Source: Microbacterium sp. Root61 (GTDB lineage Bacteria; Actinomycetota; Actinomycetes; Actinomycetales; Microbacteriaceae). Taken from it: a stretch of DNA of 64,000 bases. Positions 9,302-56,880 of the stretch are shown here, piece by piece. Numbering within the stretch: position 1 is the first letter of the stretch; every line of letters begins with the position of its first letter. The notes under the pieces are model-generated. The model worked only from the letters and a program-made list of their open reading frames with translations. It made no database searches and was not told where the DNA came from. Position numbers and translations under genes: made by a program. The stretch covers positions 2,663,760-2,727,759 of the forward strand of contig NZ_LMGU01000001.1 of assembly GCF_001427525.1 (NCBI RefSeq), in the 5' to 3' direction.

Positions 9302-10825
9302 GTGCTTGCCGACCCCTCACCCGACCTCTGTCGTGCTCTTGCCGACGACCTGCGCGCCGTCGACTTCACGTCGGCTGCACTCCGGCAGCAGTGGGGTCCG
9401 GTCGCGGATGACGCCATCGTGCGCGGCTTGCGCGCCGTGGCGCTGCGGGCGCTCGGCACCCAGCAGGATGCGCGCGCCGTGCTTGCGCGACTGTTCGTAC
9501 TGGGCATTCCGCAGTCCGCCGCCGCCGTCGCCGCTGCACTCCCCCGCACCGGCGTCGCCGGGCTTCAGGCCCTCGGCGTGGCGCAGGCCGAGGGCGACGA
9601 CATCCGTCCCCTCGCCCTGATCCGGCCGCAGTCGTTCGCCGACGACCTGGGCGACGGCGAATGGTGGATCGCCAGCGACCTCGACGAAGCCGCCGTGGGC
9701 GGGCCGCTGCCCGAAGACCACGTGCTCGGCGTCGGCGGGGCCTCGCTGACGCTGGCCGCGCTGCAACTGCCCACTCCCGCGGCGACCGCGCTGGACCTCG
9801 GCACCGGCTGCGGCATCCAGGCCCTGCGCGCCCGCCGGTCGACCGCGCACGTCGTGGCCACCGACATCTCGCAGCGCGCCCTGCACCTCACCCGCCTTAA
9901 CGCGCTGCTCAACGGCGTCGATGGCATCGAGGTGCGTTTCGGCAGCATGTTCGAGCCGGTCGTCGGTGAGCGGTTCGACCGCATCGTGTCCAACCCGCCG
10001 TTCGTGATCACCCCTCGCGCCGAGGGGGTGCCCGCCTACGAGTACCGCGACGGCGGCATGGTCGGCGACGGCCTCGTCGAGGCGTTCACGCACGGCGTCG
10101 GCGAGCATCTGAGCACCGGCGGCGTGGCGCAGTACCTCGGCAACTGGGAGACCCGCGACGGCATCGACGGACTCGATCGGGTGCGCGGCTGGGTCGAGGC
10201 TGCACCCGTGCCGCTGGATGCCTGGGTGATCGAACGCGAGGTGCTGGACCCGCTGGCGTACGCCGAGCTGTGGATCCGCGACGGCGGAACGCTGCCCGGC
10301 AGCCCGGAGTTCACGCACCTCGTGGAGGCGTGGCTCGACGACTTCGCCGCGCGCGGCGTCACCGCGATCGGCTTCGGCTACGTCCTGCTTCGGCGGCCAC
10401 CATCCGGCGACGCGCCCACCCTCGCCCGGTACGAGCGCGTCGGGCAGAGCCTCGGCGAGGGGCCGCTCGGCACCCACCTCGCGGAGGCCCTGGCCGCCCA
10501 CGATCGACTCGCGCTGATGGATGACGCGGCGGTCGCGGCATCCGTCCTGACCGTCTCGTCCGATGTCACCGAGGCGCGCCATCACATGCCGGGGGTTGCG
10601 GATCCGAGCGTCATCGAGCTGCGTCAGGGCGGCGGATTCGCCCGCACCCTGACGAGCGATCCGGCACTCGCGGCGCTGGTCGGCGCGAGCGACGGCGACC
10701 TGACCGTCGGCGTGCTGATCGGTGCGATCGCCGATCTGCTGGAAGTGGATGCCGCGGCCCTCCGCGCCGACCTCCTCCCCCGCGTGCGCGAACTCCTCTT
10801 CACCGGATTCCTGCACTTCGCCTGA
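9302..10825 (+). CDS. SAM-dependent methyltransferase (HemK/RlmG-like NPPF family)
   Basis: The 507-residue product has an N-terminal helical domain (about 1-130). A class I methyltransferase core follows, with the SAM-binding motif ALDLGTGCGIQAL near residue 165 and the catalytic NPPFVI motif typical of N-methyltransferases acting on glutamine or nucleotide amino groups. A C-terminal domain of about 200 residues completes it. The target cannot be told from sequence; ribosomal RNA or a translation factor is most likely by analogy with RlmG and PrmC. The start is uncertain: GTG at 9302 or TTG at 9290. Neither has a good ribosome site, so a leaderless message is possible. It is divergent from the DUF6049 gene and 37 bp upstream of cca. 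Confidence 0.85.
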   Translation: MLADPSPDLCRALADDLRAVDFTSAALRQQWGPVADDAIVRGLRAVALRALGTQQDARAVLARLFVLGIPQSAAAVAAALPRTGVAGLQALGVAQAEGDDIRPLALIRPQSFADDLGDGEWWIASDLDEAAVGGPLPEDHVLGVGGASLTLAALQLPTPAATALDLGTGCGIQALRARRSTAHVVATDISQRALHLTRLNALLNGVDGIEVRFGSMFEPVVGERFDRIVSNPPFVITPRAEGVPAYEYRDGGMVGDGLVEAFTHGVGEHLSTGGVAQYLGNWETRDGIDGLDRVRGWVEAAPVPLDAWVIEREVLDPLAYAELWIRDGGTLPGSPEFTHLVEAWLDDFAARGVTAIGFGYVLLRRPPSGDAPTLARYERVGQSLGEGPLGTHLAEALAAHDRLALMDDAAVAASVLTVSSDVTEARHHMPGVADPSVIELRQGGGFARTLTSDPALAALVGASDGDLTVGVLIGAIADLLEVDAAALRADLLPRVRELLFTGFLHFA

Positions 10826-45492: not shown

Positions 45493-46437
45493 CTACGCCG
45501 CGGAGGCGCGTTCCACGGCGACGCGCAGCAGCCCGTCGGCCTCGTCGAGGAGTCGACCGGCGGTGTCGGGTGCGATCCCGGTCAGCAAGGCGAGGATCGC
45601 CTCCTTCACGCGTCCGTCGGCGGCATCCAGGGCCGCTTCGGCCTGCTCGGCTCCGACGCCGCTCACCGTCATGACCGTGCGGATGGAGCGGGCACGGAGC
45701 TTCTCGTTTGTGGCGAGCAGGTCGACCATGATTCCGCGGTAGGTCTTGCCGAGCCGCACCATCGCAAGGGTGCTGAGCATGTTCAGCACGAGCTTCTGAG
45801 CGGTACCGGACTTCAGCCGCGTCGACCCCGCGACGAACTCCGGACCGACCACCACCTCGATGGGGATATCGGCGATACGACCGATCACCGAGTCGGCGTT
45901 CTGCGCCACAGCGATCGTCAGGGCATCGATCTCACGCGCGTAGCGGAGTCCGCCGACGACGTAGGGGGTGCGTCCCGAGGCGGAGATCCCCACCACGACA
46001 TCCCGGTCGGTCAGGCCGAGCTCGGCCAGTTCGACGGCCGCGGCACGATCGTCGTCCTCCGCGTTCTCGACGGCGGTCATCAGTGCGGTCGGCCCACCGG
46101 CGATCAGCCCGCGCACCATCTCGGGCGGGGTGCCGAACGTCGGCGGGCACTCGGAGGCATCGAGCACGCCCATGCGCCCGGCCGTCCCTGCGCCGAGATA
46201 GATGAGTCTTCCACCGCGCCGGAACCGCTCGACGATGCCGTCGACGGCTTGGGCGATCTGAGGTGCGTGGTGGGCGACGACGAGAGGCACGCTCTGGTCG
46301 CCGAGGTTCATGAGCCGGACGAGCTCGAGCGTTTCCAGCGTGTCGAGATCGATCGAGTCGCGGGCGGCCTCGGTCGTCATGGCGGCGAGCTCATCGATGA
46401 GTTCGCTCATCCGGTTCGCGGGCGAAGTGTCAGGCAC
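45493..46437 (-). CDS. murQ: N-acetylmuramic acid 6-phosphate etherase MurQ
   Basis: The 314-residue SIS-domain lyase cleaves the D-lactyl ether of MurNAc-6-phosphate, giving GlcNAc-6-phosphate and D-lactate. The diagnostic block LIYLGAGTAGRMGVLDASEC, followed by CPPTFGTPPEMV, is present, as are VVVGISASGRTPYVVGGLRYA and GSTRLKSGTAQKLVLNMLST. The GTG at 46437 overlaps the kinase gene by eight bases. MurQ is close to proof that the surrounding cluster handles cell-wall amino sugars. Confidence 0.95.
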   Translation of the reverse strand: MPDTSPANRMSELIDELAAMTTEAARDSIDLDTLETLELVRLMNLGDQSVPLVVAHHAPQIAQAVDGIVERFRRGGRLIYLGAGTAGRMGVLDASECPPTFGTPPEMVRGLIAGGPTALMTAVENAEDDDRAAAVELAELGLTDRDVVVGISASGRTPYVVGGLRYAREIDALTIAVAQNADSVIGRIADIPIEVVVGPEFVAGSTRLKSGTAQKLVLNMLSTLAMVRLGKTYRGIMVDLLATNEKLRARSIRTVMTVSGVGAEQAEAALDAADGRVKEAILALLTGIAPDTAGRLLDEADGLLRVAVERASAA

Positions 46438-47329
46438 GGTGGATGAGCCCCTTCAGAGGTAGGTCGTCGCGGGTCGCGATGATGCGCGCACCGTCCAGAG
46501 CGGTGCCGGCGGGGGCACGGGTGATCAGGTCGCGGGCTGAAAGGGCGGTGGTGAGCTTCGCCATGAACCAGTCCGACCCGGTCAACCCGCCCAGGACGCC
46601 GACGATCCGCTGGCCGGTGGCCAGTGCAGCAGCCTGCGCAGTGGCGGCGAGCTCGGTGGTCGCAGCATCGACGATTGCGAGCGCGGCGGCATCGCCGTCC
46701 GCAGCGGCGGCGAGGACGGCGGGGGCGTACCGCGCCAGCCTGGCGGCATCCTCACCACCGGTCGGCGCGGCGCCGACGCCTGACACGGCGATGAGGTCGA
46801 CGAGGCGGGTGGGAGCGGCGGCTCCGGCGACCGCCATCGCGGCCGCCCGGATGCCGGCGCGGCCGATCCAGGCACCGGAGCCGACGTCGCCCGCGAGGAG
46901 GCCGAGGCCGTCGTGGCGTGCGTGTCTGCCGTCGGCCGCGACACCGAGCGATACGGCACCCGTACCCACCACGAGGCAGACGCCGGGGGTGCCATCGAAG
47001 GCGCCCGCGTGCGCCGTGACGATGTCGGAGGCGACCGCGACGGGTACGGCATAGGTCGCGGCGAGCAGGCGCGCGAGTTCCTCAGCGCCAGCGGGAGAGG
47101 TCAGTGCGCCGGCGGCTCCGATACCGAACGACGTCGGCCCTAGGTGCGGCGCGACATCGTCGAGCAGGGTCCGCAGGACTTCGGCCGTGCGTGCCGGGGC
47201 GCCGGATACGGCCAGGCCGGGGAGGCCTTCGCGCGTCGCGGCGGCGATCTCACCGGATGGTCCGCTGACCACGATGCGGCAGCGGGTCTTGCCGAGGTCG
47301 ACGCAGGCGACGACGTCTTCAGTGCTCAC
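46430..47329 (-). CDS. BadF/BadG-type sugar kinase, probable MurNAc/GlcNAc kinase
   Basis: The 299-residue ASKHA-fold kinase of the BadF/BadG/BcrA/BcrD family has phosphate-1 segment VVACVDLGKTRCRIVV, phosphate-2 type CLVVGTGAVSLGVAADG, GDVGSGAWIGRAGIRAA, and VGVLGGLTGSDWFM near the adenosine site. Family members phosphorylate N-acetylglucosamine and, in the clostridial MurK, N-acetylmuramic acid. Overlap with murQ suggests it supplies MurNAc-6-phosphate. I chose the GTG at 47329 because AGGAGAACC lies directly before it. The promoter faces the RpiR regulator across a palindrome. Confidence 0.88.
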   Translation of the reverse strand: MSTEDVVACVDLGKTRCRIVVSGPSGEIAAATREGLPGLAVSGAPARTAEVLRTLLDDVAPHLGPTSFGIGAAGALTSPAGAEELARLLAATYAVPVAVASDIVTAHAGAFDGTPGVCLVVGTGAVSLGVAADGRHARHDGLGLLAGDVGSGAWIGRAGIRAAAMAVAGAAAPTRLVDLIAVSGVGAAPTGGEDAARLARYAPAVLAAAADGDAAALAIVDAATTELAATAQAAALATGQRIVGVLGGLTGSDWFMAKLTTALSARDLITRAPAGTALDGARIIATRDDLPLKGLIHRA

Positions 47330-47353
47330 GGTTCTCCTCACAGTGCAGGCTGG

Positions 47354-47373
47354 AACAAGTATACGTACTTGTT
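47354..47373. promoter_or_regulatory. Palindromic operator between the kinase and the RpiR regulator
   Basis: AACAAGTA (47354-47361) and TACTTGTT (47366-47373) are perfect inverted copies four bases apart, in AT-rich DNA between divergent genes. It is the best candidate for the binding site of the RpiR/MurR-type repressor. Confidence 0.65.
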
Positions 47374-47382
47374 AACATGACC

Positions 47383-47391
47383 GTAACAATG
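47383..47391 (+). promoter_or_regulatory. GTAACAATG motif, copy 1 (before the RpiR regulator)
   Basis: GTAACAATG preceded by ACATG and followed by TTTCA. A near-identical arrangement lies before the tandem-GNAT gene (48379-48387). It may be a shared operator half-site or -10 promoter region linking the two transcription units. Confidence 0.45.
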
Positions 47392-47475
47392 TTTCAGCAA
47401 CAGGGTATTGGAGTGGGGCACGTGCGTCGTCGAGACCATACTGGGATGAGTGATCGAACGACGCCAGGAGCGCGA

Positions 47476-48336
47476 ATGAGCATTCAGTCGGACATCGAGG
47501 CGGCCGTAGGGTCGCTGTCGCCTTCGCTGCGGCGGATCGCTGAGACGATCCGGGAGCGTCCGACGATCGTGCTGGACAGCACGATCAGCGACTTGGCCGC
47601 CGAATGCGGCACCTCGGTCGCGTCCGTCGTGCGCTTCTGCCAGGCGATCGGAATGGCCGGCTACGCGCAGCTGCGCGTCGCACTGGCGACCGAGCTCGGC
47701 AAGGAATCCGCGCAGTTCGGGATGCCGGCCGCCTACGGCGCGGACGTCTCCCCGGGCGACACGCTGCAGGAGATCGCACGCAAGATCGCGTCGCTGGAAC
47801 TCATGGCGATCGACGAGACGATCGGCTCGCTGGACTTCGACGTGCTCGAGCGCGTGGTCGGGCGATTCGAGAACGCGAGCCGCATCCTGCTGTACGGCGT
47901 CGGCGCCAGCCAGTTCGTCGCGGAAGACCTGCAGCACAAGCTCTTCCGCATCGGCCGGGATGCCTTCGTGCTGTCGGATCCGCATGAGGCATGGGCCGCG
48001 GCGGCGCTCCCCGTGAGCGGGGTCGTGGCGATGGGTATCTCCCACCTCGGTGAGACGAAGGACACGCTCGAGTTCCTCCGGATCGCCGCGGAGAACGGCG
48101 CATTCACGGTCGCGCTGACCGGCGTTCCCGGCTCGGCGATCGCCAACGCGGCCGACGAGGTGCTCTACACCCGGGCCCGCGAGACGACGTTCCGCGCGGG
48201 GGCCATGGTGAGCCGCATCGCGCAGCTCGCGCTCGTCGATTGCCTCTTCGCCGGTATCGCGCAGCGCCGCTATCACTACACCGTGGAAGCGCTGCGTCGC
48301 ACGCGCGAGGTCACCAGGGGCGCACGCGGCGTCTGA
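47476..48336 (+). CDS. RpiR-family regulator, MurR type
   Basis: The 286-residue product has an N-terminal helix-turn-helix (SIQSDIEAAVGSLSPSLRRI; SDLAAECGTSVASVVRFCQA). A C-terminal SIS sugar-phosphate-binding domain follows (ASRILLYGVGASQFVAEDLQ; VVAMGISHLGETKDTLEFLR). MurR of E. coli senses MurNAc-6-phosphate and controls murQP. By position this protein should control the kinase-murQ unit and the downstream genes. The ATG at 47476 follows AGGAG; an ATG ten codons earlier (47446) is possible. Confidence 0.9.
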   Translation: MSIQSDIEAAVGSLSPSLRRIAETIRERPTIVLDSTISDLAAECGTSVASVVRFCQAIGMAGYAQLRVALATELGKESAQFGMPAAYGADVSPGDTLQEIARKIASLELMAIDETIGSLDFDVLERVVGRFENASRILLYGVGASQFVAEDLQHKLFRIGRDAFVLSDPHEAWAAAALPVSGVVAMGISHLGETKDTLEFLRIAAENGAFTVALTGVPGSAIANAADEVLYTRARETTFRAGAMVSRIAQLALVDCLFAGIAQRRYHYTVEALRRTREVTRGARGV

Positions 48337-48378
48337 ATCCGCCTCCTGACGGTCAGGTGGAGTCGTGTGCCCGCATGT

Positions 48379-48387
48379 GTAACAATG
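48379..48387 (+). promoter_or_regulatory. GTAACAATG motif, copy 2 (before the tandem-GNAT operon)
   Basis: GTAACAATG in the context GCATGT-GTAACAATG-CTCCA repeats the motif found before the RpiR gene. It lies about 75 bases before the GNAT start and suggests common regulation of the whole cluster. Confidence 0.45.
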
Positions 48388-48458
48388 CTCCAAGCTAAGA
48401 CTGCAAGATGAAACTGAGTGCCGTAGACTGGCGGCTCTCGAGGTTGAGGAGGAACCGG

Positions 48459-49442
48459 ATGATGGATGCCACCGTGCAGGTGAGGGCGTTCCAGCCCGGC
48501 GACGGTCCCCGCATCGCCGATGCATGGACGGCCGCCGCGCCGCAGGACCCGATCACGGCCACCCGCTTCCGCGACCTGATCCTGCTCGACCGCAACTTCG
48601 ACCCCGAGGGTCTCTTCGTGGCCGACCGCGACGGCGAGGTCGTCGGCGCCGCCTACGTCGTGCGTCGCCGCGTCGCGCACGACGGCGATGACCTCGAACC
48701 CGGCCGTGGCTGGATCCCGTTCTTCTTCGTGCGCCCGGACGCGCGCCGACAGAGCCTCGGCCGTGAACTCCTGAACCGCGGGCTCGAGTGGCTGCGCGAC
48801 GAGGGCGTCACCGAGGTCGTGTTCTCCAGCTACACCCCGAACTACGTGCTGCCCGGTCTGGATGCCGACCGCTATCCCGAGGCGGCCGCGCTGCTCGCCT
48901 CGCTCGGCTTCGAAATCATCGAACAGCCCAGCTCGATGGAGATGTCGCTGCGCGGGTACCGTCTGCCGGAGTCCGCATCCGAGCACGCCGCGCGCCTGCG
49001 CGCCGAGGGCTGGTACCTGGGCACCCTGCTCGACGAGGACATCGTCCCGCTCATCGAGCTCGCCGGCCGCGAGTTCAACTCGGACTGGGCCCGCGCCATC
49101 CGCGAGGGGATCGTCAGCGGACTGCCGCTGGAGCGCATCATGGTCGCCCGCAACCCGGACGGCCGTCTCATCGGCTGGGCGATGCACGGCACCTACGACG
49201 ACGTCATCGATCGATTCGGCCCGTTCGGTGTGCTGCCGGAGAGCCGCGGAACCGGGCTCGGTCGCCTACTGCTGCATCTGACCCTCGAGCGGATGTCCGC
49301 GGTGCAGGCCCACGCGGCATGGTTCCTCTGGGCGGACGAGGGGTCCGCGGCATCCAACCTCTACGTCAAGACCGGCTTCGAGATCACACGCACCTTCACG
49401 ATCCTGCGAGCCGACATCTCCTGGGAAGGGAAGAACGCATGA
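48459..49442 (+). CDS. Tandem GNAT acetyltransferase (MshD-like architecture) in amino-sugar operon
   Basis: The 327-residue product consists of two GNAT folds. The first (about 1-160) has the acetyl-CoA loop RPDARRQSLGRELLNRGLEW, and the second (about 170-320) has LPESRGTGLGRLLLHLTLER. Two GNAT units in one chain of this size is the plan of mycothiol synthase MshD, but here the gene is first in an amino-sugar operon and is coupled (ATGA) to a PIG-L deacetylase. It may acylate an amino-sugar intermediate or be a quality-control acetyltransferase; the substrate is unknown. The ATG at 48459 with AGGAGG is the best start. Confidence 0.82.
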   Translation: MMDATVQVRAFQPGDGPRIADAWTAAAPQDPITATRFRDLILLDRNFDPEGLFVADRDGEVVGAAYVVRRRVAHDGDDLEPGRGWIPFFFVRPDARRQSLGRELLNRGLEWLRDEGVTEVVFSSYTPNYVLPGLDADRYPEAAALLASLGFEIIEQPSSMEMSLRGYRLPESASEHAARLRAEGWYLGTLLDEDIVPLIELAGREFNSDWARAIREGIVSGLPLERIMVARNPDGRLIGWAMHGTYDDVIDRFGPFGVLPESRGTGLGRLLLHLTLERMSAVQAHAAWFLWADEGSAASNLYVKTGFEITRTFTILRADISWEGKNA

Positions 49443-50131
49443 GCAAGACCGTCATCGCCGTCGGTGGACACATCGGCGACATGGAACTCACCGCAGGTCC
49501 TACGCTCGCCAAGGTGGTGCTCGAGGGTGGACGCGCGATCATCATCGACTGCACGTATGGGGAGCGCGGCCACCCCACGATCGTGCCGAGCAAGTATCGC
49601 GAGCAGAAGCTCGAAGAGGCCCGGTTCTTCGCCGACACCATCGGCGCTGAGCTCGTCACGCTGGACTACTCCGATGGCTTCCTGCCCGACGACGAGGCTG
49701 TGGCCGAACTGATCGCCGAAGTCATCCGCGAGGCGAAGCCCGACATCCTGATCACCCACTGGCTGCACTCGATGCACCGCGACCACGAGCGTGCGGCTCA
49801 GGCCGCACTGCGGGCGGCATTCCTCGCCTCCATCCCGATCGAGGAGATCGCGGCCGAGCGCCACTCGGTGCCGACCATCCTGCACGCCGAGAACTGGGAG
49901 GACATGGAGGGCTTCGAGGCCGATACGTTCTTCGAGATCCCGGATGCCGCATACGACCGCTGGCGTACCGGCATCGAGCGTCATGCCTTCGCCCGCGGCG
50001 AGACTTACGGCTTCCGCTTCATCGACTACTACTCCGCGCTGATGCAGGTGAAGGGCTGCCTCGTCGGCCACCAGCGCGCCGCGGCATTCAAGTCCGCAGG
50101 GCATGAGCAGTTCGCCCTCGCTGGCCCCTGA
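49439..50131 (+). CDS. PIG-L family N-deacetylase with altered active-site motif
   Basis: The 230-residue LmbE/PIG-L fold protein would remove an N-acyl group from an amino sugar. The zinc motif, usually AHPDDE, reads GHIGDME: His11 and Asp14 keep the zinc ligands, but the catalytic aspartate position is Gly13. The later HRDH supplies the third ligand. PIG-L enzymes include MshB and chitin-disaccharide deacetylases. Its place between a GNAT gene and a sugar importer, with a NagB-type deaminase downstream and no nagA, suggests it supplies the deacetylation step of amino-sugar breakdown. The start overlaps the GNAT stop. Confidence 0.85.
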   Translation: MSKTVIAVGGHIGDMELTAGPTLAKVVLEGGRAIIIDCTYGERGHPTIVPSKYREQKLEEARFFADTIGAELVTLDYSDGFLPDDEAVAELIAEVIREAKPDILITHWLHSMHRDHERAAQAALRAAFLASIPIEEIAAERHSVPTILHAENWEDMEGFEADTFFEIPDAAYDRWRTGIERHAFARGETYGFRFIDYYSALMQVKGCLVGHQRAAAFKSAGHEQFALAGP

Positions 50132-50174
50132 ACCCGACCCGAACACACCCGCAATCACATCTGGAAGGAAAACC

Positions 50175-51491
50175 ATGAAGAAGCACTCGTTGCTCGCCGG
50201 CCTCGGTGTCGCGGCCGCGGTCGCACTCGTCGCGACCGGTTGCTCGTCCTCCGCCGCTCCCGAAGACGGTTCGCAGGAGATCACGTTCCTCACCCACTGG
50301 GGACCGGAGCAGGTCACCATGCTCGAAGAGGCCGCAGCGGCCTTCACCGAGGAGAACCCGGACATCACAGTGAAGGTGCAGGCGGTGCCGTTCGCCAACC
50401 TGCTGTCGACACTGCGCACGCAGGGGGCGTCCCCCGACGGCCCGACCATCGCGGGCGTCTACGACGCATGGCTGCCCGAACTCGCCCGTGACGGGCTCGC
50501 CGCCGAGGCTCCGGCCGACGTCGCTGCCGACGTCGAGGCGAACTGGCCGGCCGGTGTGGTCAACGCGGCCACGCAGGAGGGCGCGATCCGCGGCATCCCG
50601 AACGAGGTCGACCTCTATCAGCTGAACTACAACACCGCGTTGTTCGAAGAGGCCGGCATCACCGAGCCGCCGGCGACGTGGGACGAGCTCGTCACAGCCG
50701 CCAAGGCCATCACGGGCACAGGCGAAGGCCGTCAGGGCATCGGGTTCATCACAAGCTGGAACTCCGGCGCCGTGCACCCGTTCCTCTCGCTGCTGGCCTC
50801 CAACGGCGGCACCTTCCTGAACGCCGCCGGCGACGCGGCCGACCTGGAGAGCCCGCAGGCGCTCGAGACTGCGGAGCTGTATCAGCAGCTCGTCGACGAG
50901 GGCCTGACCGACCCGTCGATGTCGGGCGCGAACGCCAACACCACCGGGCCTTACCTCGACAACTTCGTCAACGGTAAGACGGGGATGATCATCATGGCGA
51001 ACTGGTGGGAGTCCTCGCTGAAGGACGCGATGGGCGACAATTTCGCGAACGTCGCGACGGCGCCGATCCCCGTCGGCCCCAGCGGTGACGTCTCCAGCTC
51101 GATCTCCTACTCGTGGGACACGATCGTCAACGGCAACGCGTCCGAGGGCAAGCAGGAAGCCGCATGGAAGTTCCTCACGTGGCTGAACGGCCCGGACTCG
51201 GGTGAGAACGGTTCCTCGGCGATGGGCGACATGCTCATCTCGATGGGCATCCTGCCCAGCCGTATCTCCGACGTCGAGGCGCATGCCGAGGCACTCGGTT
51301 CCGACTTCCTGAGCTCGTACGTCACCGCCATGGAGACGGCGACCCCGTTCCCGACCGTGCTCGGTGCGACGGCCGGCGCCGACGCCCTGCAGCGTCAGAT
51401 CGAGCTGCTGCTGAACGGGCAGACGGATGCCGCGACCGCGATGAAGACGGCGACCGTCGACGTCGATGCGGCACTCACCGCCGCACGCTGA
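50175..51491 (+). CDS. Sugar ABC transporter substrate-binding lipoprotein (CUT1)
   Basis: The 438-residue family 1 solute-binding protein has lipobox VATGC, HWGPEQVTMLEEAAAAF, GIPNEVDLYQLNYNTALFEE and a C-terminal region typical of CUT1 binding proteins for oligosaccharides. The ATG follows GGAAGGAA. It is first of the importer genes, 43 bp after the PIG-L gene. Ligand prediction from context: MurNAc, GlcNAc or a muramyl disaccharide. No ATPase gene is present; CUT1 systems commonly share an MsiK-type ATPase encoded elsewhere. Confidence 0.93.
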   Translation: MKKHSLLAGLGVAAAVALVATGCSSSAAPEDGSQEITFLTHWGPEQVTMLEEAAAAFTEENPDITVKVQAVPFANLLSTLRTQGASPDGPTIAGVYDAWLPELARDGLAAEAPADVAADVEANWPAGVVNAATQEGAIRGIPNEVDLYQLNYNTALFEEAGITEPPATWDELVTAAKAITGTGEGRQGIGFITSWNSGAVHPFLSLLASNGGTFLNAAGDAADLESPQALETAELYQQLVDEGLTDPSMSGANANTTGPYLDNFVNGKTGMIIMANWWESSLKDAMGDNFANVATAPIPVGPSGDVSSSISYSWDTIVNGNASEGKQEAAWKFLTWLNGPDSGENGSSAMGDMLISMGILPSRISDVEAHAEALGSDFLSSYVTAMETATPFPTVLGATAGADALQRQIELLLNGQTDAATAMKTATVDVDAALTAAR

Positions 51492-51510
51492 CGTCAACGA
51501 AAAGGTATTC

Positions 51511-52455
51511 GTGAATCTCACGTCAACAGCCGGGGGAGGCCCGATCACTGGCCTCCCCCGGCCACGTCGCCGCCGCACCGACGCGAGTCACCGCGGCTGG
51601 ACGGCGGCCGTCTTCCTCAGCCCGACGGTGCTGATCATCGGCCTGTTCACCGTGGTGCCGATGATCATGACCATCGTGATCAGCTTCCACCGCTGGTCGA
51701 TGTTCACTCCGATCACTGACATGACCTTCGTCGGCCTCAGCAACTACGAGCGCCTGTTCGCCGACAGCGCGCGCGTGCAGGCCATCGCCAACACCGGCGT
51801 GTACGTCGGTCTCAGCGTGCTCATCACGGTGCCGCTCGCGTTCATCATCGCGATGCTGCTGTACTTCCCGAAGCTTCGCGGACGCAATGTCGTGCGCGTC
51901 ATCCTGTTCGCCACCTACGTCATCCCGACGATCGCGATCGTGATCATCTGGAGCAACATCTACGCACCCGGCTACGGCCCCCTGAGTGCGATGATCCAGG
52001 CGGTCGGACTCACTCCACCCGGATGGCTGAGCGACCCGTCGTGGGCGCTGCTGTCCCTCGTCATCTTCAACGTGTGGCAGATGCTCGGCTACTACGTCAT
52101 CCTGCTGGTCGCCGGTCTGACCCAGATCCCCGAGGAGCTTTACGAGGCCGCGAAGGTCGACGGTGCCGGTCTCTGGCGTCAGACCTGGTCGATCACGATC
52201 CCGATGCTGAGCCGGTCTCTCGTATTCGTCGTGCTGATGACGGTCATCAACTCGATCCAGGTGTTCGATCCGATCTACCTGCTGACCCAGGGCGGTCCGG
52301 CCGGTTCCACCAACGTCGTCTCGTTCGAGATCCAGCGCTCCGCGTTCCAGTACGGACAGGCCGGTGACGCCAGCGCCCTCGCGGTGTCGCTGTTCATGCT
52401 CATCGTTCTGGTCGGTGTCGTGCTCGGCGCATTCACGAAGGCGAGGAAGCGATGA
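51511..52455 (+). CDS. Sugar ABC transporter permease (MalF/UgpA type)
   Basis: The 314-residue product has six membrane segments and the EAA loop IPEELYEAAKVDGAGLWRQT, which docks the ATPase. FDPIYLLTQGGPAGSTNVVS is a characteristic late motif of CUT1 first permeases. The GTG at 51511 follows AAAGG. The stop overlaps the next permease start (ATGA). Confidence 0.93.
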   Translation: MNLTSTAGGGPITGLPRPRRRRTDASHRGWTAAVFLSPTVLIIGLFTVVPMIMTIVISFHRWSMFTPITDMTFVGLSNYERLFADSARVQAIANTGVYVGLSVLITVPLAFIIAMLLYFPKLRGRNVVRVILFATYVIPTIAIVIIWSNIYAPGYGPLSAMIQAVGLTPPGWLSDPSWALLSLVIFNVWQMLGYYVILLVAGLTQIPEELYEAAKVDGAGLWRQTWSITIPMLSRSLVFVVLMTVINSIQVFDPIYLLTQGGPAGSTNVVSFEIQRSAFQYGQAGDASALAVSLFMLIVLVGVVLGAFTKARKR

Positions 52456-53300
52456 CCCGTCGCCGCATCGGACCCCGCGCGCTGACGCAGCGCGTGCTGC
52501 TCTACGCCCTGCTCATCGTCGTGGCCGTCGTGCCTTTGTTCCCGCTCTACTGGCTGGTGATCTCGGCGTTCAAGACGCCCGCCGAGTTCGTCACCATCCC
52601 GCCCACGTGGTTCCCCGCGGCACCGACTCTCGACCCGATGGTCTCGGCACTGACCGAGGTGCCGTTCCTGCAGTCGATGCTCAACAGCATCATCATCGCC
52701 GGAGCATCGACGCTGTCGGTGCTGGTCACCAGCGTCCTCGCGGGGTACGTCTTCGCCAAGTACAACTTCCGCGGGAAGGACCTGATGTTCTGGGGCATCG
52801 TCGCCACGATGTTCCTGCCACCGATCGTCACCCTCGTGCCGCTCTATTACCTGGTCTCCTCGATGGGGCTGAGCGACACCTACATCGGCGTCCTGCTGCC
52901 GTGGCTGGCCAATGCCTTCGGCATCTTCCTGATGCGCCAGTTCATCATGGAGGTTCCGGACGAGCTGATCGAGGCCGCGCGCCTCGACGGCGCGAGCGAG
53001 TTCCGCATCGTCTGGCAGTTCGTGGTGCCGCTGATCAAGCCCGCGGTAGTGACCCTCGCGGTCTTCATGTTCGTCTTCTCGTGGAACAACTTCATCTGGC
53101 CGCTGACGATTCTGCGCACCGAGGCGATGTATCCCGTCGTGCTCACGCTGAACCGCCTCATGTCGTACACGATGAGCTTCGAGTACCAGAACGTGGTCAT
53201 CGCGGGTGCGCTCATCGCATCGCTGCCGACGCTCATCGTGTTCCTGGTGTCGCAGCGCGTGTTCGTGCAGGGGATCGCCAGCAGCGGAGTGAAGGGCTGA
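52452..53300 (+). CDS. Sugar ABC transporter permease (MalG/UgpE type)
   Basis: The 282-residue second CUT1 permease has six membrane segments, EAA loop VPDELIEAARLDGASEFRIV, and the C-terminus RVFVQGIASSGVKG, as in MalG-type subunits. It overlaps the previous and next genes by a few bases, so the importer and the deaminase are translated as a coupled series. Confidence 0.94.
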   Translation: MTRRRIGPRALTQRVLLYALLIVVAVVPLFPLYWLVISAFKTPAEFVTIPPTWFPAAPTLDPMVSALTEVPFLQSMLNSIIIAGASTLSVLVTSVLAGYVFAKYNFRGKDLMFWGIVATMFLPPIVTLVPLYYLVSSMGLSDTYIGVLLPWLANAFGIFLMRQFIMEVPDELIEAARLDGASEFRIVWQFVVPLIKPAVVTLAVFMFVFSWNNFIWPLTILRTEAMYPVVLTLNRLMSYTMSFEYQNVVIAGALIASLPTLIVFLVSQRVFVQGIASSGVKG

Positions 53301-54079
53301 TGGCCGAGATCGTCATCGTCCCCGACCGCGCGACGGGCGGCGAGCTCGGTGCGCGGATCGTCTGGGAGTACGTGGATGCCGCGACCGCGCCTGTGCTGGG
53401 TGTGGCGACCGGATCGACCCCGGAGTCCCTTTATCTGGCCATGGCGCGCACCCGCGCGAGCCGGGATCTCGCGGAGCTGCAGGCATTCGCGCTCGATGAA
53501 TATGTCGGGCTGCCGTCCGGCCACCGGGAGTCGTATCGAGAGGTCCTGCGGCGCGAGATCGTCGAGCCGCTCGGCCTCGACCCCGCACGAGTGCACGTGC
53601 CATCCGTCGAGCCCGCCCTGCTGCCCAGGACCGGCGAGCACTACGAGGAGGCGATCGCCGCGGCCGGAGGAGTCGGTCTCCAGATCCTCGGCATCGGCAG
53701 TGACGGTCATGTCGGTTTCAACGAGCCTGGGTCCTCGCTCGCCTCCCGGACACGCGTGAAGACCCTCACCGAGCAGACGCGGCGCGACAACGCGCGGTTC
53801 TTCGGCCCGGTCGAGGAGGTGCCGCGGCACAGCGTCACGCAGGGGCTCGGCACGATCCGGGACGCCGGGCATCTGCTGCTGCTCGCGTTCGGCGCGCAGA
53901 AGGCCTCCGCGGTCGCGGCCGCGCTCGAGGGGCCGCTGTCAGCCGCCGTGCCCGCCACGATCGTGCAGCTGCATCCGCATGTCACCGTCATCCTCGACGA
54001 GGACGCAGCGGGCGCCCTCGCGCACACCCGCTACTATCGCGACGTAGAACGGTTCAAACCGGAGTGGCAAGGCTGGTGA
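53300..54079 (+). CDS. nagB: Glucosamine-6-phosphate deaminase (NagB family)
   Basis: The 259-residue product has the NagB hallmarks GVATGSTPESLYLAMA (phosphate binding), FALDEYVGL with the catalytic Asp/Glu region, and ILGIGSDGHVGFNEPGSS with the ring-opening His. It converts glucosamine-6-phosphate to fructose-6-phosphate and ammonia, the last committed step of amino-sugar breakdown. The ATG overlaps the permease stop (TGATG). Confidence 0.92.
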   Translation: MAEIVIVPDRATGGELGARIVWEYVDAATAPVLGVATGSTPESLYLAMARTRASRDLAELQAFALDEYVGLPSGHRESYREVLRREIVEPLGLDPARVHVPSVEPALLPRTGEHYEEAIAAAGGVGLQILGIGSDGHVGFNEPGSSLASRTRVKTLTEQTRRDNARFFGPVEEVPRHSVTQGLGTIRDAGHLLLLAFGAQKASAVAAALEGPLSAAVPATIVQLHPHVTVILDEDAAGALAHTRYYRDVERFKPEWQGW

Positions 54080-56880
54080 CGCACATGCTCCCCTCGAGCA
54101 TCGCCGATGTGGTGGCGGATCCGACGCGCATCAAGACGCGTCTGATCGATCGAGTCGCGTACGCGAGCGACGCATCGCACTTCCTGCTCACCCCTGAGGC
54201 CGTCGTCGTGGCGGCGGGCGCGGCCGAGGTCGCGGCGATCCTGCAGGCGGCGGCGCGCGGCGGCACGCCGGTCACCCTGCGCTCGGGCGGCACGAGCCTG
54301 TCCGGACAGGGCAGTGGTGCCGGGCTCATGATCGATGTCCGACAGCGATTCCGCGAGATCGACGTCCTCGACGACGGCCGCCGTGTGCGGGTCCAGTCGG
54401 GCGCGACGGTTCGTCAGGTGAACGCCCGGCTCGCTCGGCACGGATACCGTCTCGGGCCCGACCCGGCCAGCGAGGCCGCGTGCACGATCGGCGGCGTCGT
54501 CGCCAACAACTCCAGCGGGATGGCCTGCGGCACCGACCAGAACACCTATCGCACCCTGGAATCCGCGGTGCTGGTGCTTCCGTCCGGTACCATCATCGAC
54601 ACCGCGGCCCCGGACGCCGACACCCATCTGCGTACGGCGGAACCGGAGCTTGCCGAGGGGCTCCTTCGGCTGCGCCGCCGCGTCACAGACTCTCCTGGTT
54701 CCGTCGAACTGATCCGTCGCCAGTTCGCTCTGAAGAACACCATGGGCTACGGCGTCAACGCCTTCCTCGACTTCGAGTCTCCGGTGCAGCTGCTGCTGCA
54801 CCTGGTCATCGGGTCCGAGGGCACGCTCGCCTTCGTCGCCGAGGCGACCTTCCGCACCGTGCAGATCGCCCCCAAGGTCACCACCGCGCTCGCGGTCTTC
54901 CCATCACTGCACGCCGCGACCGTCGCGCTCCCCGGCCTGACCGCGACCGGTGCCGCGACGCTCGAGCTGATGGACGCGACCTCGCTGCGCGTGGGGCAGC
55001 GCCTGCCCGGGGCGCCGGCGCAGATCCTGGGCTTCGAGGTCGAGGACCATGCCGCGCTGCTGGTCGAGTATCACGCGCACACCGACGAGGAACTCGTCGC
55101 GGCGGCGCAGCGCGGCACCCGTGTGCTCGCCGAGGCTCCGCTGCGCGCCCCGGCGGTCCTTTCGACGGATGCGGCCGCACGCAAGGCCGCCTGGTCGTTC
55201 CGGAAGGGACTGTACGCCTCGGTCGCGGGTGCGCGACCGAGCGGCACGACTGCGCTGCTGGAGGATGTGGCGGTGCCCGTCCCCGCGCTCGCCGACGCCT
55301 GCGGCGGGCTGCAGCAGCTGTTCGATCAGTACGGGTATGCCGACAGCGTGATCTTCGGACACGCCAAGGACGGCAACATCCACTTCATGCTCACCGACCG
55401 CTTCGAGGGCGACGACGCGATCGCCCGGTACCTCGGATTCACCGACGACATGGTCGACCTCGTCCTTGACGCCGGTGGCAATCTGAAGGCCGAGCACGGC
55501 ACCGGCCGTGCGATGGCGCCCTACGTGCGACGACAGTACGGCGACGAGCTGTACGGCGTGATGTGCGACCTGAAGAACCTCTGCGATCCGGCGCGGATCA
55601 TGAATCCGGGCGTCATCATCGACGAGGATCCCGACGCGCACATCCGCAGCATCAAGCTCGCCCCGACCGTCGAGGAAGAGGTCGACCGGTGCGTCGAGTG
55701 CGGGTACTGCGAGCCGGTTTGCCCCAGTCGCGACCTGACCTTGACCCCTCGACAGCGCATCGTCGTCCGACGCGAGATCGAACGAGCCCGAGGGCGCGGC
55801 GATGATGCCGCGGTGATGCAGCTCGAGCGCGACTACGACTACGCCGGCGTGCAGACGTGCGCAGTCGACGGCATGTGCCAGACGGCCTGCCCCGTACTCA
55901 TCAACACCGGCGCTCTCGTGAAGCGTCTGCGCCGCGAGGAGGCGAACCCCGTCCTGGCCGCCGGCTGGAAGGTGGCGGCATCCGGATGGAGCGCGGCCAC
56001 CCGCGGCGGTGCCATGGCGCTGTCGGCGGCGAAGGCGGTGCCCGCGCCGCTCGTGACCGCGGTGACCGACGCGGCACGGGCCGTGCTCGGCGCCGACACC
56101 GTGCCGCGCTACGGCGCCGACCTCCCCGGAGGAGGCGGCGCGCGTCGAACGGCCGTCGGAGTGATGGGCGGCGGTGAAGGCGATCCGATCGCGGTCTACG
56201 TGCCGGCGTGCGTCAACAGCATGTTCGGCCCGGCCGATGGCGGCGACGGCGTCGCGGTGTCGTTCCGACGGCTGCTGGAGCGTGCCGGCGTGCGCGTGCT
56301 CGTGCCGGAGGGCGTCGAGTCGATGTGCTGCGGGACGCCGTGGTCGTCGAAGGGCTTCAGCGGCGGCTACGACGTGATGTCCCGTCGGGTCGTCGACGGA
56401 GTCCGCGCAGCGACGCGCAACGGCGCGCTGCCCGTGATCAGTGATGCGGCCAGCTGCAGCGAGGGCTTCGAGCGGATCCTGCGCGACGAGGGCATCCACG
56501 TCGAGGACGCGGTGGCGTTCGCGCGGCGCGAGCTGCTGCCGCGGCTGTCGGTGAGCGCGCCCGTGGAATCGTTGGTGCTGCACCCGACCTGCTCGTCACG
56601 GCAGATGGGACTCGATGACGACCTCGTGGCGATCGCCGAGACGGCCGCCCTCACCGTGCAGATCCCCGACGATTGGAACTGCTGCGGATTCGCCGGAGAC
56701 CGCGGGATGCTGCATCCCGAGCTGACCGCCGCCGCGACCGCGCCCGAAGCCGCGGAGGTCGCCTCGCTCGGCGCATTGGCCCACGCATCGTGCAACCGCA
56801 CGTGCGAGATCGGCATGAGCCGGGCGACCGGCGAGTCGTACCGGCACGTCCTCGAGCTGCTCGAGGAAGCGACGCGGTAG
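54076..56880 (+). CDS. FAD- and Fe-S-containing D-2-hydroxyacid dehydrogenase (D-lactate dehydrogenase type)
   Basis: This 934-residue fusion has an N-terminal FAD-binding type 4 domain (about 35-215; RSGGTSLSGQGSG, GPDPASEAACTIGGVVANNS) and an FAD-linked oxidase C-terminal domain (to about 530; FGHAKDGNIHFMLTD, AEHGTGRAM). Two 4Fe-4S sites follow (CVECGYCEPVCP near 538; CAVDGMCQTACP near 595), then two CCG domains (CCGTPWSSKG, CCGFAGDRG). Such proteins oxidise D-lactate, glycolate or D-2-hydroxyglutarate and pass electrons to the respiratory chain. Because MurQ releases D-lactate, that substrate fits best here. The GTG at 54076 overlaps the nagB stop (GTGA), tying it to the operon. Confidence 0.9.
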   Translation: MTHMLPSSIADVVADPTRIKTRLIDRVAYASDASHFLLTPEAVVVAAGAAEVAAILQAAARGGTPVTLRSGGTSLSGQGSGAGLMIDVRQRFREIDVLDDGRRVRVQSGATVRQVNARLARHGYRLGPDPASEAACTIGGVVANNSSGMACGTDQNTYRTLESAVLVLPSGTIIDTAAPDADTHLRTAEPELAEGLLRLRRRVTDSPGSVELIRRQFALKNTMGYGVNAFLDFESPVQLLLHLVIGSEGTLAFVAEATFRTVQIAPKVTTALAVFPSLHAATVALPGLTATGAATLELMDATSLRVGQRLPGAPAQILGFEVEDHAALLVEYHAHTDEELVAAAQRGTRVLAEAPLRAPAVLSTDAAARKAAWSFRKGLYASVAGARPSGTTALLEDVAVPVPALADACGGLQQLFDQYGYADSVIFGHAKDGNIHFMLTDRFEGDDAIARYLGFTDDMVDLVLDAGGNLKAEHGTGRAMAPYVRRQYGDELYGVMCDLKNLCDPARIMNPGVIIDEDPDAHIRSIKLAPTVEEEVDRCVECGYCEPVCPSRDLTLTPRQRIVVRREIERARGRGDDAAVMQLERDYDYAGVQTCAVDGMCQTACPVLINTGALVKRLRREEANPVLAAGWKVAASGWSAATRGGAMALSAAKAVPAPLVTAVTDAARAVLGADTVPRYGADLPGGGGARRTAVGVMGGGEGDPIAVYVPACVNSMFGPADGGDGVAVSFRRLLERAGVRVLVPEGVESMCCGTPWSSKGFSGGYDVMSRRVVDGVRAATRNGALPVISDAASCSEGFERILRDEGIHVEDAVAFARRELLPRLSVSAPVESLVLHPTCSSRQMGLDDDLVAIAETAALTVQIPDDWNCCGFAGDRGMLHPELTAAATAPEAAEVASLGALAHASCNRTCEIGMSRATGESYRHVLELLEEATR

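Follow-up and report, generated by a model that had tools for sequence, protein, structure and literature searches.

Catabolism of N-acetylmuramic acid (MurNAc) of the Escherichia coli or Bacillus subtilis kind comprises MurP or MurK, MurQ, NagA and NagB, together with NagZ, NamZ and AmiE. GlmA works in a setting of cell-wall salvage, and in mycothiol synthesis MshB and MshD bring the PIG-L and tandem GNAT folds to bear on one glucosamine derivative. A MurNAc-type locus was analysed in Microbacterium sp. Root61, at positions 45,493 to 56,880 of a stretch of 64,000 nucleotides (contig NZ_LMGU01000001.1, positions 2,663,760 to 2,727,759 of the forward strand; called the window below). The core MurNAc pathway is already known, and the locus shares with its E. 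coli and B. subtilis forms a MurQ above the curated cut-off, a BadF-type kinase, NagB and an RpiR regulator, with NamZ, GH3 and AnmK found in relatives.

Members of the LmbE superfamily, to which PIG-L proteins belong, carry a motif HxD1D2, in which D1 is described as the general base (the general acid in BshB) (PMC4101496). Compared with E. coli and B. subtilis, the window adds a PIG-L protein without D1, a tandem GNAT and a linked, probable D-lactate dehydrogenase, and import is of the ATP-binding cassette (ABC) type and not by a phosphotransferase system (PTS). The best reading of the data below is that the D1-less PIG-L protein and the GNAT form an accessory pair bound to MurQ, in place of the sequence-only reading, by which PIG-L replaces NagA. 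The three genes concerned are as follows.

45493..46437, minus strand: MurQ (TIGR00274, 361.4 bits; curated equivalog cut-off, 302)
48459..49442, plus strand: tandem GNAT N-acetyltransferase, GlmA-like, with two GNAT domains (reading frame open from 48408; likely start, 48459)
49439..50131, plus strand: D1-less PIG-L/LmbE-fold protein with HIGD motif and invariant ENWED (PF02585, 74.6 bits; gathering cut-off, 28.2)

The PIG-L family and its tandem GNAT partner

A protein scan with the PIG-L sequence gave 50 loci, of which one (L064) matched over 22 residues only, leaving 49. D1 was Gly in 49 and Ala in one of the 50 aligned members (HIGD in the window, not HPDD). The metal-ligand positions H11, D14 and H116 were invariant in all 50, as were H113, D115 and ENWED (residues 151-155); in an alignment of 24 members, H11, D14, H116 and 27 further positions were invariant. 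Since one of the six patterns of the scan contained the HxDD-site motif, D1 was also checked in a taxonomy-drawn sample of 298 genomes from the phylum of Anaerocolumna, using a profile built from the scan's sequences; the centre of the sample (G179), which had been picked for its PIG-L, was excluded. Seven genomes held eight strong copies (limit, E 1e-70), and D1 was absent from all eight, their motifs being HAGD, HAAD or HPVD. Two divergent Anaerocolumna paralogues adjoining MurQ had HPLD and HSLD. In a 37-row tree, 33 D1-less rows stood apart from four intact-motif (HPDD) rows with 99/98 support, under a midpoint root and with a small, long-branched outgroup.

With E 1e-40 as the limit, the homologues came to no fewer than 2,323 protein clusters. 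The best 120 of these carried HIGD (92), HVGD (27) or HICD (1), with ENWED in 115, and the named homologues among the matches listed were called PIG-L deacetylase, N-acetylglucosamine malate deacetylase or the like. The closest Protein Data Bank (PDB) sequence to the family profile was GalB, a 4-oxalomesaconate hydratase (E 9e-20, 74.5 bits), with BshB1 barely below it at 72.1 bits. The AlphaFold2 (AF2) model of the window protein had a predicted local distance difference test score (pLDDT) of 90.4. With the LmbE/PIG-L deacetylases (MshB, BshB, diacetylchitobiose deacetylase) the family shares the PF02585 fold family, the metal-ligand positions and the second His/Asp motif; it differs from them in the replaced D1, the invariant ENWED and its separate branch. 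Judged by its motif, the PIG-L of this family is not a textbook deacetylase. The family spreads over at least four phyla and is called a deacetylase wherever sources name it, though it is without the residue that underlies that activity and travels with MurQ.

The tandem GNAT, the role of which had been left open by the sequence-only reading, proves to be the constant partner of this PIG-L. It lay directly upstream of the PIG-L gene in 30 of the 49 loci. The other 19 were listed without it, six of them being cases of a PIG-L open frame that overlaps the GNAT and one (L028) having the GNAT 3 kb upstream; 12 remained. Obligate adjacency of the two genes was ruled out by these 12 loci without a nearby GNAT. 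Nine of their genomes were searched, and eight carried a full-length GNAT elsewhere.

A profile of 22 GNAT family members matched PDB entries 5kf1, 5kga and 5kgh with 88 bits. The window GNAT alone had no PDB match at E 0.001, and one clostridial member also did not find 5kf1, which we take to be GlmA of Clostridium acetobutylicum. The two proteins share a tandem GNAT arrangement of similar length; unlike GlmA, the window GNAT is tied to a PIG-L partner and to MurQ. The AF2 model of the GNAT had a pLDDT of 86.5. The C. acetobutylicum enzyme is described as a glucosamine/glucosaminide N-acetyltransferase, of a kind that recovers non-acetylated sugars of peptidoglycan (PMC4680927). On this likeness we infer a GlmA-like N-acetyltransferase, predicted to act on glucosamine or muramic acid. 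The same two folds occur in MshB and MshD, and weak NCBIfam matches to both were found. These fell far under the curated cut-offs (MshD, 44 of 163 bits; MshB, 25 of 224), and the window setting, unlike that of mycothiol synthesis, is catabolic.

Co-occurrence with MurQ and the presence of NagA

MurQ and NagA were searched for in 38 genomes, from 38 of the 50 PIG-L loci. MurQ was present in all 38 genomes with a window-type PIG-L, in 37 above the cut-off, and in 23 of the 38 it lay outside the fetched locus. A role of the PIG-L as a substitute for MurQ had been considered for loci of Mollicutes/Acholeplasmataceae without an adjacent MurQ (L030, L033), and was ruled out by the same count. In one Acholeplasmataceae genome (G171), the MurQ match fell in two pieces below the cut-off (L069:9493-10041 and 10272-10523), which may be due to a disrupted gene or a misassembly.

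In the phylum sample, MurQ was found in 68 of 298 genomes overall, in 7/7 of those with a strong PIG-L and in 13/13 of those with the GNAT profile (Fisher p 3e-5 and 2e-9, relatedness ignored). All seven strong-PIG-L genomes carried the GNAT. With the centre counted, the figures were 8/8 and 14/14 of 299 genomes (p 6e-6 and 4e-10). In contrast, MurQ was found in 5 of the 18 genomes whose PIG-L matches were all weaker and mostly of other kinds, which is near background; among the weaker PIG-Ls that were read, those with the intact motif had no ENWED. A comparison within the genus was weaker: the PIG-L occurred in 7 of 149 genomes, the own genome counted, and MurQ in 7/7 of these against 65/142 others (p 0.005, relatedness ignored; 6/6 and p 0.011 without the own genome).

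Fourteen actinobacterial loci (L015-L028), one of them a short contig (L024), came from one PIG-L scan. The tandem GNAT was matched in 14/14, MurQ in 12/14, an adjoining BadF in 11/14, a full-length dehydrogenase in 3/14 (L016, L025, L026; weak partial matches in two more) and NagB in 1/14 (L016). In L028, MurQ was not adjacent to the PIG-L gene, yet it was present in the genome. The block of MurQ and BadF, RpiR, GNAT, PIG-L, sugar-binding protein and permeases recurs, and so reflects more than chance. Among relatives, the gene association of the sequence-only reading was kept for GNAT, PIG-L and MurQ, and lost for NagB. Beyond the actinobacteria, 33 of the 49 PIG-L loci were of Bacillota or Mycoplasmatota, with one Treponema and one proteobacterium. 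In many relatives the GNAT-PIG-L pair was accompanied by NamZ, a NagZ-type GH3, AnmK, LdcA or MupG, and the importers beside it were ABC systems or two kinds of PTS.

Two single cases were recorded among the relatives. Anaerocolumna sp. MB42-C2 had three MurQ genes (L055, L079, L080), each at most about 7 kb from its own GNAT-PIG-L pair, and the importers differed by locus (ABC; lactose-type PTS with MupG; sorbose-type PTS). One MurNAc salvage run that included GNAT and PIG-L had a polysaccharide deacetylase (PF01522; L102:6566-7483) flanked by MurQ and NamZ.

A search of the own genome for nagA found a NagA above the curated cut-off away from the window locus. This NagA, at C1:2285946, has a ROK-family protein and a sugar ABC system as neighbours, and at sequence level it tells against the claim that PIG-L stands in NagA's place. 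Two more NagA-like proteins, at 223.6 and 205.8 bits, fell short of the cut-off of 225.65. The nearest relatives of the window PIG-L were those of L016 (95% identity) and L017 (92%). Here NagA was encoded 10 nt downstream of murQ (L016; 222.7 bits, just under the cut-off) or with a 4-nt overlap with murQ (L017; cut by the contig end, 240.4 bits), so that nagA and a window-type PIG-L gene co-occur in one locus. Among the 38 genomes, NagA was found in 35, in 31 above the cut-off.

The three genomes without NagA (G159, G166, G183) are weak evidence of absence, because some are drafts or metagenome-assembled genomes. That of Acholeplasma laidlawii (G166) gave no PF01979 amidohydrolase match. Its gene run of NamZ, GH3, BadF, MurQ, short GNAT, NagB and an unclassified protein ended with another PIG-L (L070:12612-13460) having an intact HHDD motif, and its tandem GNAT and window-type PIG-L were on a contig other than that of the murQ-nagB run. 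By its motif and setting, this second PIG-L is a good candidate, and a better one than the window type, for a true NagA substitute. Two intact-motif PIG-Ls of the second kind were present in G183, with no nagB match nearby. In G159 the window-type PIG-L was the only PIG-L match, and an amidohydrolase was also present.

Proposed accessory steps and rival explanations

The locus may be an inducible operon pair that imports and burns a MurNAc-type sugar, the PIG-L and GNAT being an accessory module that acts before MurQ; we hold this to be nearly, if not quite, an even call. A modified muramic acid, with a 2-amino group other than plain N-acetyl, would be imported. The PIG-L would cleave the amide on the C2 amine, the best guess being the internal lactam of muramic-delta-lactam from spore cortex, and the GNAT would acetylate the freed amine with acetyl-CoA to give MurNAc, which would draw the ring opening onward. 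GlcNAc-6-phosphate and D-lactate would then arise through the BadF kinase and MurQ; NagA, whose gene is elsewhere in this genome and within the locus in the closest relatives, would together with NagB pass the sugar into glycolysis, and the FAD/Fe-S dehydrogenase would oxidise the D-lactate. As the window MurQ is canonical, the modification should be undone before it, and the product of the pair should be MurNAc or MurNAc 6-phosphate.

Salvage of the lactam itself, by which a D1-less LmbE enzyme would open the ring and a GlmA-like GNAT would trap the product as MurNAc, is a doubtful proposal taken on its own. The lactam is favoured as a substrate because it holds an amide on the C2 amine, the site of LmbE action, because it is abundant in spores, and because SwsB offers a precedent for loss of the base with lactam chemistry. 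Muramic-delta-lactam is reported to make up 30-50% of cortex MurNAc residues, and SwsB, which is related to CE4 deacetylases but no longer has the catalytic Asp, to convert muramic acid to muramic-delta-lactam to completion (PMC12444981). With the reaction going all the way to the lactam, ring opening would have to be drawn forward, and acetylation could do this.

Several points weigh against these proposals. To our knowledge, no lactam-opening enzyme has been described, and the scanned neighbours of the module included no gene recognised as spore-lytic or spore-specific. Lacking its base Asp, the PIG-L might have no amide-cleaving activity whatever, and its best PDB match is a hydratase. Five genomes of the phylum sample had a weaker GNAT match and MurQ, and no PIG-L at the 1e-25 cut; the GNAT was nowhere near MurQ by coordinates (one GNAT was cut by a contig end), and in one of the five (L108) it preceded a GH3 and a sugar ABC system. 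The GNAT-PIG-L pair had no recognised cell-wall gene next to it in four of the seven positive genomes of the same sample (G193, G240, G279 and G313; the contig of the last is 4.3 kb long), and a clostridial group (L032 and kin) had the PIG-L without GNAT, among housekeeping genes. The likeness to the SwsB/PdaA cyclases is also limited, these being biosynthetic, lactam-making CE4 enzymes of another fold, and SwsB being described as having no need of a transition metal (PMC12444981; PMC10116595).

An unlikely but still serious rival is that the D1-less PIG-L, like GalB, does not hydrolyse amides and instead works as a lyase or hydratase on some other intermediate of the cell wall, with the GNAT independently acetylating glucosamine or muramic acid from N-deacetylated peptidoglycan. 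GalB, the best match of the family profile, shares the LmbE fold without D1 and also reads H-x-A-D; the deacetylase Asp is reportedly replaced by Ala in it. Its lead over BshB1 is hardly one at all, and its catalytic residues, which we take to be Glu-48 and His-164, appear not to be kept, aligning with His/Asn and Trp if that numbering is right. GalB moreover belongs to an aromatic-acid pathway, unlike the amino-sugar setting of the window, and the pairing of PIG-L with GNAT would be left unexplained. The separate role of the GNAT would suit reports that some peptidoglycans are strongly N-deacetylated (PMC7864072) and that GlmA-type enzymes salvage non-acetylated peptidoglycan sugars (PMC4680927). 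Exchange of the N-acyl group on N-glycolylmuramic acid, the PIG-L removing glycolyl, the GNAT adding acetyl and the dehydrogenase oxidising glycolate as well as D-lactate, would account for the pair in Microbacterium-type actinobacteria, and the dehydrogenase does resemble GlcD as well as D-lactate enzymes. We consider it quite improbable: N-glycolylmuramic acid is not expected in Bacillota, Mycoplasmatota, Treponema or proteobacteria, to which many members of the family belong, and the loss of the base Asp would be unexplained. A preprint on mycobacterial recycling does speculate that N-acetyl may replace N-glycolyl during recycling (PMC13041923).

Little credence is given to the proposal of the sequence-only reading that the PIG-L deacetylates GlcNAc-6-phosphate for NagB. 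The operon does hold nagB and not nagA, three of the 38 genomes lack NagA (G159 having the window-type PIG-L as its sole PIG-L, along with an amidohydrolase), and some PIG-L does sit in the murQ-nagB run of G166. That PIG-L is of another type than the window's, its HxDD motif being intact. A substitute would be expected where NagA is missing, but NagA accompanies the window-type PIG-L in most genomes and adjoins murQ in L016 and L017; the base Asp is gone, and a GNAT of the same operon would undo the deacetylation. Hence a PIG-L gene next to nagB is not to be read as a NagA substitute. It is likewise very improbable that the PIG-L fold is a non-catalytic partner or sensor of the GNAT, the pair forming one acetyltransferase unit. 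The lost Asp and the adjacency and co-occurrence of the two genes would fit such a pseudo-enzyme complex, but the invariant metal ligands and further positions point to an active site under selection.

No literature treating murQ, PIG-L and N-acetylmuramic acid together was found, and none on GNAT, PIG-L and MurQ together or on catabolism of muramic-delta-lactam was among the matches listed, most subscription papers being outside the search. If the salvage proposal is true, it would be the first known catabolic route for muramic-delta-lactam and would add a new activity to the PIG-L fold, and the module would be a handle for reconstitution in vitro. Handling of this lactam or of another modified muramic acid by the module would explain the fate of non-standard peptidoglycan in soil and gut.

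Probable D-lactate oxidation and the other genes of the locus

All ten genes of the sequence-only reading were confirmed with their coordinates and strands; those besides MurQ, GNAT and PIG-L are listed here with one repeat.

46430..47341, minus strand: BadF/BcrA-type sugar kinase, probable MurNAc/GlcNAc kinase, MurK-like (PF01869, 47.4 bits; cut-off, 31.5)
47354..47373, no strand: perfect inverted repeat of 8+8 nt around a 4-nt centre, in the region of the divergent promoters, found by script; a possible, weak RpiR operator
47477..48336, plus strand: RpiR/MurR-family regulator (PF01418 and PF01380; reading frame open from 47377, likely start 47477)
50175..51491, plus strand: ABC sugar-binding lipoprotein (PF01547; reading frame open from 50103, likely start 50175 judged from sequence)
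51466..52455, plus strand: ABC sugar permease, MalF/UgpA type (PF00528)
52452..53300, plus strand: ABC sugar permease, MalG/UgpE type (PF00528)
53297..54079, plus strand: NagB, glucosamine-6-phosphate deaminase (NF001684, 329.6 bits; cut-off, 326)
54064..56880, plus strand: FAD/Fe-S D-2-hydroxyacid dehydrogenase, probable D-lactate dehydrogenase with Dld-II-type domain order (PF01565, PF02913, Fer4_8, CCG)

Six neighbour pairs were joined by overlaps of 4 to 26 nt, that of murQ and the BadF kinase gene being 8 nt, and a gap of 43 nt separated the PIG-L gene from that of the sugar-binding protein if the latter starts at 50175. Assignment of the locus to MurNAc catabolism was borne out by the canonical MurQ, the BadF kinase and NagB. 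Its description as complete was too strong, as neither an ABC ATPase nor nagA was among the listed genes of the locus. NagB passed the NF001684 cut-off and scored 209.5 bits with TIGR00502, under the cut-off of 236.9; the RpiR regulator was below the MurR equivalog cut-off. PDB sequence matches of the BadF kinase included a GlcNAc kinase (1zc6) and a MurNAc/GlcNAc kinase (8zo3, E 4e-8), and it was far under the NagK_SO3507 equivalog cut-off; by these matches its substrate is probably MurNAc/GlcNAc.

A linked dehydrogenase for the D-lactate released by MurQ, as proposed before, gained support from independent linkages to murQ. In two relatives the dehydrogenase gene was placed on the locus's other arm and followed murQ directly; the two genes overlapped by 4 nt in L026 and were 31 nt apart in L025. 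In L077, genes for an FAD-oxidase, EtfA and EtfB were one gene from murQ. That such unlike enzymes are repeatedly linked supports D-lactate oxidation as a part of the pathway. The dehydrogenase has FAD_binding_4, FAD-oxidase_C, Fer4 and CCG domains in one chain, the CCG passing the whole-protein cut-off with no single stretch within the E-value limit. Dld-II-type D-lactate dehydrogenases (Shewanella, Desulfovibrio) are described as single chains that combine FAD-binding and FAD-oxidase domains with Fe-S domains (PMC4481167), a likeness of domain order. PDB sequence matches included LctD, a D-lactate dehydrogenase and a glycolate oxidase, and the protein missed the GlcD and YdiJ equivalog cut-offs. 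By these matches the substrate is probably D-lactate, with glycolate possible too.

The run of L077 (3125-8215) held the FAD-oxidase, EtfA and EtfB together with MurQ, AnmK and NamZ, probably an Etf-linked D-lactate dehydrogenase in MurNAc catabolism. The order in L033 was GNAT, PIG-L, EtfB, EtfA, FAD-oxidase, RpiR and AnmK.

A second MurNAc locus of the own genome encoded a fused MurQ-BadF protein of 626 aa, a one-piece etherase-kinase (L065:8859-10739, equal to C1:2216858-2218738). Its neighbour was an RpiR regulator, and some 3.5 kb upstream of these genes came part of a peptide-type ABC importer, namely a permease and a binding protein of the oligopeptide type. No GNAT or PIG-L match was found in the 18 kb read around it. 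From its genes the second locus looks like an ordinary route, and the accessory module is what sets the window locus apart.

As an RpiR operator, the palindrome at 47354..47373 was rejected for lack of conservation, the same scan run on 12 relatives giving no like repeat in most. A short motif, GTAACAATGYTYCA, was present upstream of the RpiR and GNAT genes (window positions 47383-47396 and 48379-48392) and is possibly regulatory; its first nine bases had just two copies on the plus strand of the window.

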